IMG/VR virus record: IMGVR_UViG_3300027608_002035
Span: 1-39,949 of that record
Origin: a virus
DNA: 39,949 nt
Direction: 5' to 3' (one strand)
Part shown: positions 32,279 to 37,627 of the stretch, in pieces
How positions within the stretch are numbered: the first letter of the stretch is position 1
Layout: each line of letters opens with the position of its first letter
The notes under the pieces: generated by a model
Databases searched by the model: none
What the model was told of the DNA's origin: nothing
What the model saw: the letters and a program-made list of their open reading frames with translations, nothing else
Translations under genes and position numbers: made by a program

Positions 32279-32713
32279 TTACTTAGTAGAGGCCCTAAGT
32301 TGCCAGGACCATTTATTGTGGTTGTCAATACGATCTGCAAGAAAGTTCATAATTCCTTGTTCGTCTTTTTTCTGAGCCTCATCAAATGCCTTTTTGAGAG
32401 ATTTAAGAAGATCTTCGTTGGCTACCAATAAAGACTTAGCCATAGCTTTTGGATTTGGCTGTGCGTCTTTAAACTCAAGTGTGCGAAGGTCTAAAAACTT
32501 CTGCAAACTAAAGGGGGCATAGTCATCGAGTTTACGAATGTTCTCGGCAATTGGGTCAATTGACCCATAAGCATCCTCGTAGATATCTGAAAACAAAGAA
32601 TGGTATTGGCTGAAATCTGGACCCTCTACATTCCAATGATAGCCATGGGCCATGAAATAAAAAGTAACTACGTCAGAAACGAGCACTTTAAGGGATTTAA
32701 TAAGTGATTCCAT
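32279..32713 (-). CDS. dps: Dps-like ferritin
   Basis: This 144-aa ferritin-fold protein would form a shell that oxidises and stores iron and can shield DNA from peroxide. The sequence shows the Dps signature YFMAHGYHWNVEGPDFSQYH (residues about 19-38) followed by LFSDIYEDAYGSIDPIAENI. The ferroxidase His, second His, Asp and Glu positions match by spacing; the residue aligned to E. coli Dps Asp67 appears to be Ser with an Asp next to it. The ATG at 32713 is preferred (AGGAG five bases upstream) over an earlier in-frame TTG. It is first in the minus-strand cassette, behind its own promoter and a leader hairpin. Dps genes are occasional phage cargo and here may protect the genome or manage iron. 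Confidence 0.9.
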   Translation of the reverse strand: MESLIKSLKVLVSDVVTFYFMAHGYHWNVEGPDFSQYHSLFSDIYEDAYGSIDPIAENIRKLDDYAPFSLQKFLDLRTLEFKDAQPNPKAMAKSLLVANEDLLKSLKKAFDEAQKKDEQGIMNFLADRIDNHNKWSWQLRASTK

Positions 32714-32730
32714 TACATCTCCTAATAGCA

Positions 32731-32773
32731 AAAGCCAGGGGCTATCAAAGTTTATCTGATAACCCCTGGCTTT
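32731..32773 (-). promoter_or_regulatory. Long hairpin in the dps leader
   Basis: AAAGCCAGGGG (32731-32741) pairs with CCCCTGGCTTT (32763-32773), and after one mismatch TATCA (32743-32747) pairs with TGATA (32757-32761), a 16-bp stem in all. On the minus strand it sits in the 5' leader, eight bases before the dps ribosome site, and is followed by CTTTTGCTATT. It could act as an attenuator, a translational control element or an RNA stabiliser. Confidence 0.7.
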
Positions 32774-32895: not shown

Positions 32896-34152
32896 ATGAC
32901 CACCAACTCTTTTCAGGGGCCATTCTTGGCCATCCCATTATGGGCTGTAGATCTAATCAAGGACTACGGGCAACCTAGGGATCTACAAGTTTTGGTTGGG
33001 TTGGTTGCTTTAATGGACAGGCGTCAGAGGGAAGTGACCGCCTCTGTTCAGCAGATTGCCGACCATGTGGGGGTGTCCAAAGAGACATCCAAAAGATCTC
33101 TTAAGTGGCTTTCTGAATATGGGGTCATTACAACTCGTAGGCGTAAGAACCCCTCTATCAATGTGTACACAGTTCACTACACTGACGCTCAGATGGGGTC
33201 ACGGGTGACCCTAGATGGGGTCATGGGTGACCCTATCAAAGATATAGATGGGGTCACGGGTGACCCTATTGAACTTACAGGGGGGGTCACAGGTGACCCT
33301 AGTGAAACTCCGCAAACCTGCATGGCATATGGGAATGCGGAGGGTTCTATAGAAGTATTAAATATAGAGACACTAGTAATAAAGAAATTAGAGAGGGCCG
33401 CGAGCGGCGCTGGAGATGAAATGATTATTGGAGCAGACCCTGACGATATGAAAACCACCGAAGAACCAAAGGTATCCAAGGCACCACCACGCAAAACAAA
33501 CAGACTTCTTTCTCACTTTGTGAGCAACCGCCAATCAATCATGTCTGCCAATTACAACCAGCGTGATTTGATTATCCTCCGTCGTACTTTTAACTTACTT
33601 ACAGATTCTGGGCTTAACGAATTTACGGTAATGCAAATGATCAACAAGTTTTTATCGGTAGAACGCTGGCGGACCGCGGATAACCCAGCGTTACTTTTTT
33701 GTAGCAAAGAAATCCAAAAACAATTAATGGAGCACATTGAGGTTGCAGTTTCAACGGATGACCCAATCCTTATGCTGATGCTTAACGATTTTGACAGGAC
33801 TGGGATTGAATTACAATGGGATGCTCCCCAAGACAACCTCCTTAAAAAGGCCATAGTTATGCGCGGTACGGACATTTGCTATCGCTATCCTGAAGTTGTT
33901 TCTGCCCTTGCAATGCAGTACAGAGGCGATTTTGGAAATGAGAACTTTGTTAATGGTCTTACTGCGCTAAACTCTTTAGTAAGGTTCATCACAGGTGAAG
34001 AACAGGAAGACCCGACAGCGGCTCTCAATTCGTTACGGGGATTCCCGTTACCAGACGAGCTTTTAAAAATGTCAAAATCACTTCTTCGGTCACCAGCTAG
34101 CTCAATTACCGAAGCGGTATATAACTATCGGAGGCTTTCCAATGGAAAATGA
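32896..34152 (+). CDS. Replication initiator, winged-helix, lambda O-like layout
   Basis: This is a 418-aa protein. Residues about 1-95 hold a winged helix: DLQVLVGLVALMDRRQREVT, then SVQQIADHVGVSKETSKRSL as helix-turn-helix and WLSEYGVITTRRRKN as wing. Residues about 100-135 are a linker encoded by the four palindromic iterons. The C-terminal region (about 195-418) is helical with VERWRTADNPALLFCSKEIQ and may recruit the helicase loader. Gene order (initiator, loader, helicase, primase) and the internal origin-like repeats support the replication role. ATG 32896 fits a leaderless transcript; an upstream in-frame TTG at 32875 lies in front of the -10 box and is rejected. Sequence similarity to lambda O itself is not claimed. 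Confidence 0.8.
   Translation: MTTNSFQGPFLAIPLWAVDLIKDYGQPRDLQVLVGLVALMDRRQREVTASVQQIADHVGVSKETSKRSLKWLSEYGVITTRRRKNPSINVYTVHYTDAQMGSRVTLDGVMGDPIKDIDGVTGDPIELTGGVTGDPSETPQTCMAYGNAEGSIEVLNIETLVIKKLERAASGAGDEMIIGADPDDMKTTEEPKVSKAPPRKTNRLLSHFVSNRQSIMSANYNQRDLIILRRTFNLLTDSGLNEFTVMQMINKFLSVERWRTADNPALLFCSKEIQKQLMEHIEVAVSTDDPILMLMLNDFDRTGIELQWDAPQDNLLKKAIVMRGTDICYRYPEVVSALAMQYRGDFGNENFVNGLTALNSLVRFITGEEQEDPTAALNSLRGFPLPDELLKMSKSLLRSPASSITEAVYNYRRLSNGK
33195..33212 (+). repeat. Iteron 1
   Basis: The unit GGGGTCACGGGTGACCCT contains inverted arms GGGTCAC and GTGACCC around GG. It is read in frame as G-S-R-V-T-L, a different frame from the other three copies. Confidence 0.9.
33217..33234 (+). repeat. 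Iteron 2
   Basis: GGGGTCATGGGTGACCCT has one C-to-T change in the left arm. It starts 22 bp after iteron 1. Confidence 0.9.
33250..33267 (+). repeat. Iteron 3
   Basis: GGGGTCACGGGTGACCCT is identical to iteron 1. It starts 33 bp after iteron 2. Confidence 0.9.
33283..33300 (+). repeat. Iteron 4
   Basis: GGGGTCACAGGTGACCCT has arms intact and one change in the central pair. It starts 33 bp after iteron 3 and is preceded by two extra G bases. Confidence 0.9.
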
Positions 34153-34483
34153 GCCGGAATATACTTTTTTTAAAATTGAAGACATCATCGTGTTTGTTGA
34201 TTGGATCAAAGCCAACTTTGAATCAACAGAAGAGTACAACGATTGGTTTGAATTTTCTTTAGATGAAGAAGTACCCTACGATTTATTCTGTAAACGTCAA
34301 CCCAAAAAAGCAGAACTGTTGCATGAATGCCTACATTGTGGCGCTAAGTTTTCTACGGTTGCTGGTTTAAACGTTCACAACAAGGTTTTACACAAAAACA
34401 AAATGGAAGATGACTTTTGGAAGATCATCAATGAGTCATACAACAAGGAGCCACATGAAACCGAACTACCCGACACCGACTGA
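34142..34483 (+). CDS. C2H2 zinc-finger protein (113 aa)
   Basis: The sequence CLHCGAKFSTVAGLNVHNKV followed by LH gives C63-x2-C66-x12-H79-x4-H84, a textbook C2H2 finger, unusual outside eukaryotes but known in some phages and in Ros/MucR-like bacterial proteins. The N-terminal about 60 residues are acidic and aromatic (VDWIKANFESTEEYNDWFEF). GGAGG at 34130-34134 is the ribosome site, and the start overlaps the initiator gene by 11 nt. The end overlaps the loader gene. The placement suggests a DNA- or protein-binding helper in replication or a regulator; the exact role is unknown. Confidence 0.75.
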   Translation: MENEPEYTFFKIEDIIVFVDWIKANFESTEEYNDWFEFSLDEEVPYDLFCKRQPKKAELLHECLHCGAKFSTVAGLNVHNKVLHKNKMEDDFWKIINESYNKEPHETELPDTD

Positions 34484-35048
34484 TTGGAAGTCAGAAAACT
34501 GGTGGCGTAACCGCACCGCGGACGAACGCTTGTTCCATTCTAAAATTCCACAAAGACTAGCCAGCATTCCAGAGGACGGCATTAAACTAAACACCAGCAT
34601 CATGTCCTGGCTTGATAGTTATGAACCAGGAAGCAGCCTTTACCTTCACGGCAAAACTGGTACTGGTAAAAGCGTTATTGCCCAACACCTTTTAAAGGTG
34701 CTTGTAACAACTCACCCAGCTTCTGGAAGATTTGCTACGGCTGATCGGTACTTAGAAATGCTTAAAGATCAGTTTGACAACGACAACCTTTTACCATCCA
34801 TGTACTCAAGCCCTTACTTGATTAAGTACATCCAAGGAGTCTTTGACATTGTTGTGCTTGATGGGGTTGGGCAAGAACGAGAAACAGAGTTTGCCAACCA
34901 TGAAATTGGGAGTCTTATTCGCAGACGCTACGAAGACATGCGTTCAGTAATTATTACTTCAACTATGCCAATTATGGATTTTACTCGCAGATATGGTGAC
35001 AGGGTTAAAAACGCGGTCATGGAAATGACTGAAATTAAGGTGTCGTAA
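34455..35048 (+). CDS. DnaC-like helicase loader ATPase
   Basis: This is a 197-aa AAA+ protein. Walker A is GKTGTGKS (residues 66-73). Walker B is FDIVVLDGVG, with D136 and Gly in place of the usual second acid. Sensor 1 is VIITSTMP, and an RRYGDRVKNAV sequence near the end suits the arginine-finger region. Such proteins load DnaB-type helicase at an origin. ATG 34455 is chosen because AAGGAG lies at 34445-34450; a longer in-frame start at 34410 has no such site. It lies between initiator and helicase genes, as expected for a lambda P/DnaC role. It may load the phage helicase, the host helicase, or both. Confidence 0.85.
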   Translation: MKPNYPTPTDWKSENWWRNRTADERLFHSKIPQRLASIPEDGIKLNTSIMSWLDSYEPGSSLYLHGKTGTGKSVIAQHLLKVLVTTHPASGRFATADRYLEMLKDQFDNDNLLPSMYSSPYLIKYIQGVFDIVVLDGVGQERETEFANHEIGSLIRRRYEDMRSVIITSTMPIMDFTRRYGDRVKNAVMEMTEIKVS

Positions 35049-35488
35049 TGGAGGGCGGAGACATTGCAATGTTTGGCCGAGCTGGTCAAGCATGCGTGTT
35101 TGAAGGTCTTATTGCATCTCGACCAACTGGTGCTGCTGGAATAAAATCAAAGTTTTACGAACGTAGTAAGGATTGGGATTCAGCTTTAAAACTTTGGAAA
35201 CCTAATGACCTTCCTTTGAAGTCTTTGATTGACGCAGTAAATCGTCTAAACATTTCAACAGAGGTAATCACTTTCTTACCACAAGAAGCCGTTGAACACA
35301 TTTACAAATGGCTTGTTCGTAAAGGTGTAACCCCCGTTGTAGAGCGTTACGAAACTCCAGAAGATTATGAACTTGATTTACGTTATAACAGATCAATCCA
35401 TACTGTGTATGTTGCCGATCAAGAAGTTGCCCGCATTTTAGGAATGCGTGCTACAGTCATTCCCCCAACCACCGCCTGGAGAAACTAA
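35048..35488 (+). CDS. Hypothetical protein in replication operon (146 aa)
   Basis: The sequence is alpha/beta with helices ALKLWKPNDLPLKSLIDAVN and strand EVITFLPQEAVEHIYKWLVR, and ends VYVADQEVARILGMRATVIP. The C-terminal phrase DQEVARILGMRATVIPPTTA looks conserved, but I cannot name the family. It is coupled on both sides (TAATG at start and end), so it is made together with loader and helicase. A role in nucleotide or DNA metabolism is possible only by context. Confidence 0.65.
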   Translation: MEGGDIAMFGRAGQACVFEGLIASRPTGAAGIKSKFYERSKDWDSALKLWKPNDLPLKSLIDAVNRLNISTEVITFLPQEAVEHIYKWLVRKGVTPVVERYETPEDYELDLRYNRSIHTVYVADQEVARILGMRATVIPPTTAWRN

Positions 35489-36741
35489 TGGCATCTAGTG
35501 AACTTCACTTAATTTCTAAAGTAATTCAAGACAAGGATGTCACAGTCCCAGTTCGTGCTGGCGTAAAGCCGGATCACATGTCTGGAGAATGGTCTGGCAT
35601 TTGGCAATGGATACTTGAGTTTTACCGCACGCATGGTGCGGTACCTACTGAACGCGTATTTGTACAAGAGCATGGTGCTATTTCGTTGTACGACTCAACG
35701 GACGAAAGTTACTCAAGGCTTATTGAAGAGATCTTTGACGCTTACAGAAAGCGTTGCGTTATGGATGCTCTTCAACCAGCAATTTCATTCTTAAACGCTG
35801 ATGATATTTCTGCCGCAGTTGCCTCACTCTCCGCTGGCCTACAGAAAGCGGCAGTTGAAACAGCGCGTCTTCGCGACATTGACATTATTCAAAACTGGGA
35901 AAATCGTCTTGTACGTTATGAAGAAATGCGTCTTCAACCAAACGCTCTTCGTGGTATCCCAACTGGTTTTTATGGTCTTGATAAAATCACCCATGGATTA
36001 CGACCCCAACAGTTTGTTGTGTTTGCTGGAGAACCAAAGCGTGGTAAATCTTTGTTTGCTTTGATCCTTGCCAACTCAGCACACGTTCATGGTAAGCGAC
36101 CCCTCTTTGTTTCATTTGAAATGAGCATTGAAGAGCAAGAAGCTCGCTATGACTCTTTAATTGCCAAAGTTCCGTATGATCGTATTTTGTCTGGTGACCT
36201 AGACGCCAAGGACATGGCCAAGATTAAAAAAGCGTTGTCGTTACGAAAGAACATGCAACCCTTTGTCTTTAGCGAAGACACCTCATCTCTTACAACAGTT
36301 AGCGCACTTGCTAGCAAAGTTCAAGAGTATTCACCAGACGTGTTGTTTGTTGACGGCGTGTATTTGATGGACGATGAGGAGGGTGAAGCCAAAGGAAGCC
36401 CACAAGCATTGACCAACATTACGCGTGCGTTAAAACGTATGGCTCAACGCTTTGACATTCCCGTGGTTGCAACCACTCAAGTGTTGTCATGGAAACTACA
36501 GAATCGCAAGACTCGTGCAGTTACTGCTGACGCAATTGGTTACACCTCTTCATTTGCCCAAGACGCTGACCTGATCCTTGGTGTAGAGCGCAACCCAGAC
36601 ATGGATGACCAAGCGATCATTAGAGTTGTGCTAGCGCGTACAGCACCTACTGGTGAAGTTCATGTTAAGTGGGACTGGAAGACAATGGAGTTTGAGGAGG
36701 TTATGGGAGATGAGCACAGCATTGACCCCTCAATTGACTGA
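35488..36741 (+). CDS. Replicative DNA helicase, DnaB-like
   Basis: In this 417-aa protein the N-terminal helical domain (HLISKVIQDKDVT start) is followed by a RecA-type core opening with GIPTGFYGLDKITHGLRPQQ. Walker A is GEPKRGKS (residues 181-188). Next come FVSFEMSIEEQEARY, a second core motif SPDVLFVDGVYLMDD (Walker B D289), and the C-terminal phrases VVATTQVLSW and ADLILGVERNPD. This is the F4 helicase order, with a Gly-Lys-Ser loop slightly off the GxxxxGKT consensus. It probably forms a hexamer at the fork, loaded by the DnaC-like protein. It is coupled to the preceding gene by TAATG and overlaps the primase gene by 32 nt. Confidence 0.9.
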   Translation: MASSELHLISKVIQDKDVTVPVRAGVKPDHMSGEWSGIWQWILEFYRTHGAVPTERVFVQEHGAISLYDSTDESYSRLIEEIFDAYRKRCVMDALQPAISFLNADDISAAVASLSAGLQKAAVETARLRDIDIIQNWENRLVRYEEMRLQPNALRGIPTGFYGLDKITHGLRPQQFVVFAGEPKRGKSLFALILANSAHVHGKRPLFVSFEMSIEEQEARYDSLIAKVPYDRILSGDLDAKDMAKIKKALSLRKNMQPFVFSEDTSSLTTVSALASKVQEYSPDVLFVDGVYLMDDEEGEAKGSPQALTNITRALKRMAQRFDIPVVATTQVLSWKLQNRKTRAVTADAIGYTSSFAQDADLILGVERNPDMDDQAIIRVVLARTAPTGEVHVKWDWKTMEFEEVMGDEHSIDPSID

Positions 36742-37627
36742 CCTAACCCTGGTGCTAGAAACCGCAGGGGTAGAACTATCGCGTATTAGCGAAAGGGAGA
36801 TAACTGGAAAATGCCCAGTTCACCTTAGGGTTGTAGGTAAGGAAGACAGGTCACCATCATGGAGCATGAACGCCACTAGTGGTTTATGGATTTGCTTTTC
36901 ATGCGGAGCTAGAGGAACTTTGTCAAGCCTCTTGTATGAGCTGTGTGGAGATACCGCAGCATCTGCGCAACAGTTTTTAATTAACGCTGGCGCAGAAAGG
37001 TTGTATGCACCTAAGAAACAAGAAGTAGCACAGCCTCAATTACGCACCGACGCTTTCTTTGGGTTTGACAGAGTTTCAGATAAACGTTGTGCCACCAAAG
37101 ATCTAGACCCAGATTTGGTTTATCGTTACGGAGTTCGTTGGAACCCTAACAATAGAAGCTGGGCTATTCCTATAATTTCCCCGATGGGGCAACTGATGGG
37201 GTGGCAAGAAAAAAAGACAGACTGGGTACGCAACTTTCCCGTAGGTGTAGAGAAAGCAAAAACACTATTTGGCGCTGAACGATTTAGGAACCGTACAGCC
37301 ATACTCGTAGAGTCTCCATTAGACGTCGTTAGGTTTGCTATGGTATTTAGTAAACCTCAAGCAGTTGCTTCTTTTGGAGCACAAGTATCTAAAGAACAGA
37401 TGAACCTTTTGACCCACATGGCCGACACTGTAATCATTGCAATGGATAATGACGTTGCTGGTATTGAATCTAGTAAAAAGCTATACAAGTTTATGGGTAG
37501 GCCACGCAAGGGTTTAAAGTGGTGGAATTACCAAGGCACTAGCGCCAAAGACATTGGTGACATGACCAATGATGAAATAGAGGCAGGCCTTACCACATCA
37601 ACTGTAGTACCCCCCTGGATGTTATGA
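36710..37627 (+). CDS. DNA primase, DnaG-like
   Basis: This is a 305-aa primase. The N-terminal zinc site is CPVH (C35, H38) with CFSC (C62, C65). The Toprim core has AILVESPLDVVRF (E201) and VIIAMDNDVAG (D246, D248), the acidic residues that bind catalytic magnesium. It is shorter than bacterial DnaG and lacks a clear helicase-binding C-terminal domain. ATG 36710 is chosen because GGAGG (36696-36700) is 9 bases upstream. The first 32 nt overlap the helicase, tying their expression. The last bases overlap the SNF2 gene as ATGA. The domain order zinc finger, linker, Toprim is clear; the template-binding part in between is inferred. Confidence 0.9.
   Translation: MSTALTPQLTDLTLVLETAGVELSRISEREITGKCPVHLRVVGKEDRSPSWSMNATSGLWICFSCGARGTLSSLLYELCGDTAASAQQFLINAGAERLYAPKKQEVAQPQLRTDAFFGFDRVSDKRCATKDLDPDLVYRYGVRWNPNNRSWAIPIISPMGQLMGWQEKKTDWVRNFPVGVEKAKTLFGAERFRNRTAILVESPLDVVRFAMVFSKPQAVASFGAQVSKEQMNLLTHMADTVIIAMDNDVAGIESSKKLYKFMGRPRKGLKWWNYQGTSAKDIGDMTNDEIEAGLTTSTVVPPWML

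Follow-up and report, generated by a model that had tools for sequence, protein, structure and literature searches.

A probable lambda-type replication origin in the linker-coding region of the initiator gene of a contractile-tailed phage

Introduction

Replication origins of uncultured phages have almost never been located, and the locus described here raises the question of whether a single gene can both encode a replication initiator and contain the site at which that initiator acts. The sequence analyzed (the window) is the IMG/VR virus record IMGVR_UViG_3300027608_002035, positions 1-39,949 (39,949 bases), a fragment of a contractile-tailed phage with genes for a terminase, a portal, a major head protein and a tail sheath. 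Inside its initiator gene lie four palindromic repeats (iterons), which the original prediction had likened to lambda ori. We report that the middle of this gene very probably doubles as the replication start site, and the evidence makes it highly likely that an origin of the lambda type is overprinted on the part of the gene that codes for the initiator's linker.

Results

Four phased palindromes in the initiator linker

The initiator gene and its iterons are organized as follows:

32896-34152, + strand: initiator gene, 418 amino acids, with matches to replication initiators of phages (phrog_270, E 1.7e-11; phrog_391, O-like, E 1.4e-6; AlphaFold2 model)
Amino acids 9-98 of the initiator: winged helix-turn-helix (wHTH) domain (AlphaFold2 with 25 homologues, predicted local distance difference test (pLDDT) about 90)
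33079-33117, + strand: recognition-helix codons, amino acids 62-74; the Lys66 codon (33091-33093) covaries with the palindrome
33190-33486, + strand: stretch coding for the predicted disordered linker, amino acids 99-197 (pLDDT < 50)
Amino acids 198-418 of the initiator: helical C-terminal domain (AlphaFold2)
33196-33211, + strand: iteron 1, GGGTCACGGGTGACCC, in the frame giving GSRVTL
33218-33233, + strand: iteron 2, GGGTCATGGGTGACCC, in the frame giving GVMGDP
33251-33266, + strand: iteron 3, GGGTCACGGGTGACCC
33284-33299, + strand: iteron 4, GGGTCACAGGTGACCC

The four palindromes share the 16-bp core GGGTCAnnnnTGACCC, that is GGGTCA-N4-TGACCC with a variable centre, and start 22, 33 and 33 bp apart. 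The original prediction of four near-identical phased palindromes in the linker region of a winged-helix initiator, at the head of a loader, helicase and primase operon, was therefore correct, except that the length of 18 bp that it gave them was slightly generous, as the outermost bases are asymmetric in some copies. With up to three mismatches allowed, the pattern matched eight times on both strands, always at the four iteron sites (1.05 matches expected; eight were reached in 0 of 100 shuffles), and no further copy with at most one mismatch in the inner 14-mer was found elsewhere in the 39,949 bases. A dispersed regulator is ruled out by this lack of further sites in the record. The palindromes could still be operators through which the initiator, or another regulator, represses or blocks transcription of its own operon, the origin lying elsewhere. 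Domains of this wHTH fold belong mostly to transcription regulators and intragenic binding can serve as a roadblock, but no copy was found at a promoter, nor at any other place in the 40 kb, the array sits in initiator genes of replication operons, and an unwinding element always lies at a fixed distance from it (see below). We regard the operator explanation as unlikely.

Conservation in relatives and constraint on the DNA

Related genes lacking the repeats would have argued against an origin, and among 60 related loci fetched by protein sequence alone the array, with at least two family-type sites in the linker, was present in 58; the exceptions were L119, whose contig ends before the linker, and L129, with a single intact site. 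An independent search by DNA only, for two GGGTCA-N4-TGACCC sites 19-49 bp apart, returned 54 viral contigs, nearly all with the sites in the linker of a wHTH gene. The contigs carrying relatives reach 99 kb, and the number of sites varies among them (three or four plus degenerate copies). Although any spacing from 19 to 49 bp was allowed, the GGG arrays used only 22-25, 33-34 and 45-46 bp, with a periodicity at 11 bp (R=0.92) not equalled in any of 5000 random sets and without a codon period (R(3)=0.07). The multiples of 11 bp originally proposed are exact in the window, whereas the relatives are helically phased at a period near 11.2-11.5 bp. In the relative L003, whose protein is 70% identical, four intact palindromes are spaced 22, 23 and 34 instead of 22, 33 and 33; aligning the two sequences needs one gap of 10 nt and another of 1 nt in the opposite direction (+10/-1), and both helical phase and reading frame are kept.

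Matches of the pattern in genome contigs were mostly short repeats outside initiators, and only L040, L049 and possibly L024/L039 (one Evansella element) look real. Regular arrays of a GGGTCA-type palindrome (45-bp and 24-bp spacing) were also seen at L048:5905-6010 and L047:6061-6172, in open reading frames (ORFs) without a detected wHTH; their hosts are a 1037-aa ORF of a Eubacterium metagenome-assembled genome (MAG) and a Methanocella MAG contig.

In seven pairs of relatives we counted how often an amino acid shared by both was also encoded by the same codon. This held for 121 of 141 positions (86%) in the iteron stretch and for 63 of 66 (95%) in the AT stretch downstream; the corresponding figure for the C-terminal domain was 612 of 1088 (56%), with p about 1e-12 for either stretch. 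In the window, iteron 1 encodes GSRVTL and iterons 2-4 encode GVMGDP/GVTGDP in another frame; the third frame across the palindrome would hold a TGA, leaving only two frames open to such a site. Because the reading frame varies between copies but the DNA does not, the constraint acts on the DNA. These data also bear on the idea that selection on the protein maintains duplicated GVTGDP-type peptides in the linker, with the palindromes as a by-product. Similar peptides are indeed encoded by three of the four copies, but the two frames give unrelated peptides, the spacing shifts by 22, 23 and 34 nt and not by codons, synonymous sites are constrained, and the linker is predicted to be disordered. 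Frame switching and synonymous constraint rule this explanation out, and we give it hardly any credence.

A probable unwinding element and a hairpin at a fixed place

The linker-coding stretch, 33190-33486, is overprinted not only with the iterons but also with two further elements:

33345-33394, + strand: probable DNA unwinding element, TAG/AGA-rich, about 65 bp beyond the array, the least stable 50-bp segment of the whole record
33397-33408, + strand: short hairpin, GCCG-CGAG-CGGC, adjoining the unwinding element, with compensatory changes in relatives

The least stable 40-bp segment of all 39,949 bases falls here too (33348-33387), while at segment sizes of 30, 60 and 80 bp other places rank less stable than this region. 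The 50 bp of lowest stability in the gene region are centred 55-70 bp past the last site in 15 of 16 family representatives, despite differing peptides. The proposed parallel with lambda ori is hence supported and closer than first recognized, with an unwinding element 3' of the array at a fixed place in nearly all relatives. On the coding strand the unwinding stretch is richer in TAG and AGA than random A/T-ending synonymous codons would make it (TAG 45 against 21; 0/500), and it favours ATA, GTA and AGA as codons for Ile, Val and Arg. The element and its equivalents in 14 relatives, TAG/AGA-rich and AAA-poor on the coding strand, are reminiscent of DnaA-trios (5'-TAG-3'), the consensus of which is 3'-GAT-5' (PMC8287927). 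The trio phasing is only modest, the stretch being TAG-rich but without clear trios, and no good DnaA box was found at the array, the best DnaA-box-like words having two mismatches and lying >170 bp beyond the unwinding element.

Directly after the unwinding stretch, most relatives have a hairpin at the equivalent place. Of its four pairs, three have each undergone one compensatory double change, with 100% of cells paired (1/500 shuffles). The L005-type and L127 sequences have different stems there; in the L008 group the stem is 15 bp long and sits a little closer to the array. The strength of the hairpin by itself is not exceptional (about 30% of other 80-nt windows hold an equally strong one), and the argument for it comes from its position and the compensatory changes. 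Just past the hairpin-coding stretch, the peptide (M)I-x-G-A-D-P-D (amino acids 176-183, about 33421-33444) is conserved even in the divergent L008 and L028, and is possibly a docking motif for the loader.

The array might alternatively control replication, as a copy-number, handcuffing or partition-like site, without being the start site. The variable number of sites would fit this, and plasmid iteron arrays can have such control roles, but the conserved unwinding element and hairpin beside the array have no role in that model, which we therefore consider very unlikely.

Covariation between recognition helix and palindrome

We compared helix residues with palindrome arms in 196 arrays forming about 50 clusters, using a uniform helix-finding rule blind to the residue itself together with further pattern scans. 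Lys at the Lys66 position accompanied a GGGTCA arm in 15 of 15 clusters, Ile, Met or Val accompanied GTGTCA in 13 of 13 (among the matches listed, the GTGTCA cases being a sample), and Asp accompanied GCGTCA in two of three. Among 27 helix positions, that of Lys66 had the highest mutual information with arm base 2 (z 7.1, the next being 3.3; 0/2000 shuffles) and also with arm base 1 (z 3.6). Residue and palindrome also changed together in relatives found by protein alone: L088 and L113, with Gln, have the palindrome AGGTCA-N4-TGACCT, and L127, with Ile, has GTGTCA-N4-TGACAC, with within-family co-switches from K to Q (L088) and from K to I (L127). Ile or Met is again combined with GTGTCA in another lineage (L129-L135), whose C-terminus is unrelated. 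For a prior prediction that an acidic residue goes with GCGTCA there were few new cases (Asp in L139 and L210, Gln in L297). As the residue at this position tracks the palindrome arm across about 50 lineages, these comparisons are strong evidence that the initiator reads the palindromes within its own gene.

The replication operon and its surroundings

Downstream of the initiator gene, the window encodes the remaining replication functions:

34410-35048, + strand: DnaC-like AAA+ helicase loader (phrog_50, E 1.2e-20)
35488-36741, + strand: DnaB-like replicative helicase (PF03796, E 1.2e-36)
36653-37627, + strand: DnaG-like primase with zinc ribbon and Toprim (phrog_47, E 9.3e-32)

A SNF2 helicase gene is also present downstream. 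The loader-helicase-primase operon, in the window and in relatives, speaks for an origin at this locus. Among the divergent members tested, loader and helicase both follow the initiator in L111, L128 and L144. In L127 the loader is present; in L028 the helicase is present and an unmatched gene takes the place of the loader. Between initiator and loader, positions 34142-34483 encode a 113-aa product with a classical C-x2-C-x12-H-x4-H zinc-finger pattern and no family match. On the other side, a Dps/ferritin-like protein gene (32279-32731, - strand; PF00210, phrog_3636) adjoins the operon, and a long inverted repeat (GCCAGGGGCTATCA...TGATAACCCCTGGC, 32733-32773), also kept in L003, lies between this divergent gene and the initiator gene.

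The O-like profile match of the initiator (phrog_391, E 1.4e-6 over amino acids 44-201) is weak. No solved O structure matching the initiator was found, and a fold search of the PDB returned only generic wHTH regulators. The Pfam scan gave only HTH_Crp_2 and DUF7342, both weak, with no match to a Rep_3 initiator domain or to the DnaD/DnaB_2 domain of DnaD-type phage replisome organisers.

Discussion

Several observations weigh against the view that this locus is an origin read by its own initiator. The raw GC-skew does not turn at 33.2 kb and reaches its minimum at 19.7 kb, which is weak evidence either way because most genes of this fragment are co-oriented. Moreover, tblastn found no cultured relative among phages for the P0001, L022 and L010 proteins, nor any match for P0001 in plasmids; the Streptomyces phage GiJojo, considered as a cultured relative, has helicase and terminase in common, but its candidate, gene 96, does not encode a wHTH initiator. 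With regard to the covariation, at least four Lys clusters have GTGTCA and Gln pairs with several arms, and the clusters share ancestry. Both associations become weaker with coarser clusters: at 45% helix identity the Lys-G association alone loses significance (p 0.16) and that of hydrophobic residues with T has p 0.03. The link between residue and arm is a strong tendency and no strict code.

On the origin reading, and by analogy with lambda, we infer the following order of events. Dimers of the initiator winged helix would bind the four palindromes, with the recognition helix and its Lys66 in the arms, all on one face of the DNA, and would build a complex similar to the O-some. This complex could then open the TAG-rich AT element about 45-95 bp downstream (33345-33394), where the C-terminal domain and the DnaC-like loader would load the phage's DnaB-like helicase onto the exposed strand, after which the phage primase would start synthesis. 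As guesses, the hairpin, which lies at the outer edge of the unwinding element, may delimit the bubble, or may come into play once single-stranded, for instance as a primase or loader site.

Sequence alone yields a probable origin, its putative melting site and the residue that would set its specificity in many unrelated contigs. The family also provides a natural set of co-evolved initiator-origin pairs in which to see how a one-residue change accompanies a change of binding site, and it shows how a DNA element intolerant of one of three reading frames can be held in a coding region by way of a disordered linker. More tentatively, it is conceivable, if rather doubtful, that these loci represent a broad, undescribed class of phage origins in which phased palindromes, a TAG-rich unwinding element with a single-strand loading signal, and a hairpin are all overprinted on the initiator linker; specificity would then be readable from one or two recognition-helix residues, and initiator-origin pairs of uncultured phages could be predicted from sequence. 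No description of this family was found among the open-access papers searched.

Among known systems, iteron plasmid origins of the Rep_3/RepA type resemble the window in having phased iterons, near 22 bp, with an AT-rich element behind them; here, however, the sites are palindromes inside the gene and the protein lacks a Rep_3 match. The unwinding system of bacterial oriC (basal unwinding system, or BUS, and DnaA-trio) likewise places a TAG-rich strand beside the initiator sites, but the window has no good DnaA box at the array, its initiator is not DnaA and its trio phasing is only modest. Cultured Arthrobacter, Pseudomonas JBD68 and Bordetella PHB09 phages have annotated initiators with linker-region repeats about 21-22 bp apart, but their repeat (GGGGTGCA-type) and recognition helix are different, their arrays are followed by 11-bp tandem repeats, and they do not belong to the family of the window. 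Among these initiator genes (L305-L315), the initiator linkers of Arthrobacter phages Kuleana, Abidatro, RedFox, Cote, Vulpecula and Marchesin contain GGGGTGCA-, GGGGTGCC- or GGGGTGAA-type repeats, mostly 22 bp apart and followed by the 11-bp tandem GAACCGTCCTT, and the JBD68 and PHB09 initiator genes contain CGGGGTGCAAC / AAAGGGTGCAA repeats.

The closest likeness is with lambda, where O dimers bind the iterons and the adjacent AT-rich region is opened (PMC7466680, PMC6022878). Both lambda gene O and the window have several inverted-repeat iterons inside the initiator gene and an AT-rich unwinding region directly 3' of them. Nevertheless, the iteron sequence differs, the lambda spacings of 20, 24 and 23 are replaced by wider phased ones (22/33/45), the melting region is TAG-rich and followed by a conserved hairpin, and the phage has a DnaC-like AAA+ loader and encodes DnaB and DnaG itself, whereas in lambda the P protein loads the DnaB of the host. 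Origins inside initiator genes have been known since lambda; what appears to be new is this initiator family, its spacing rules, the fixed unwinding element with its hairpin, and the covariation between residue and base.
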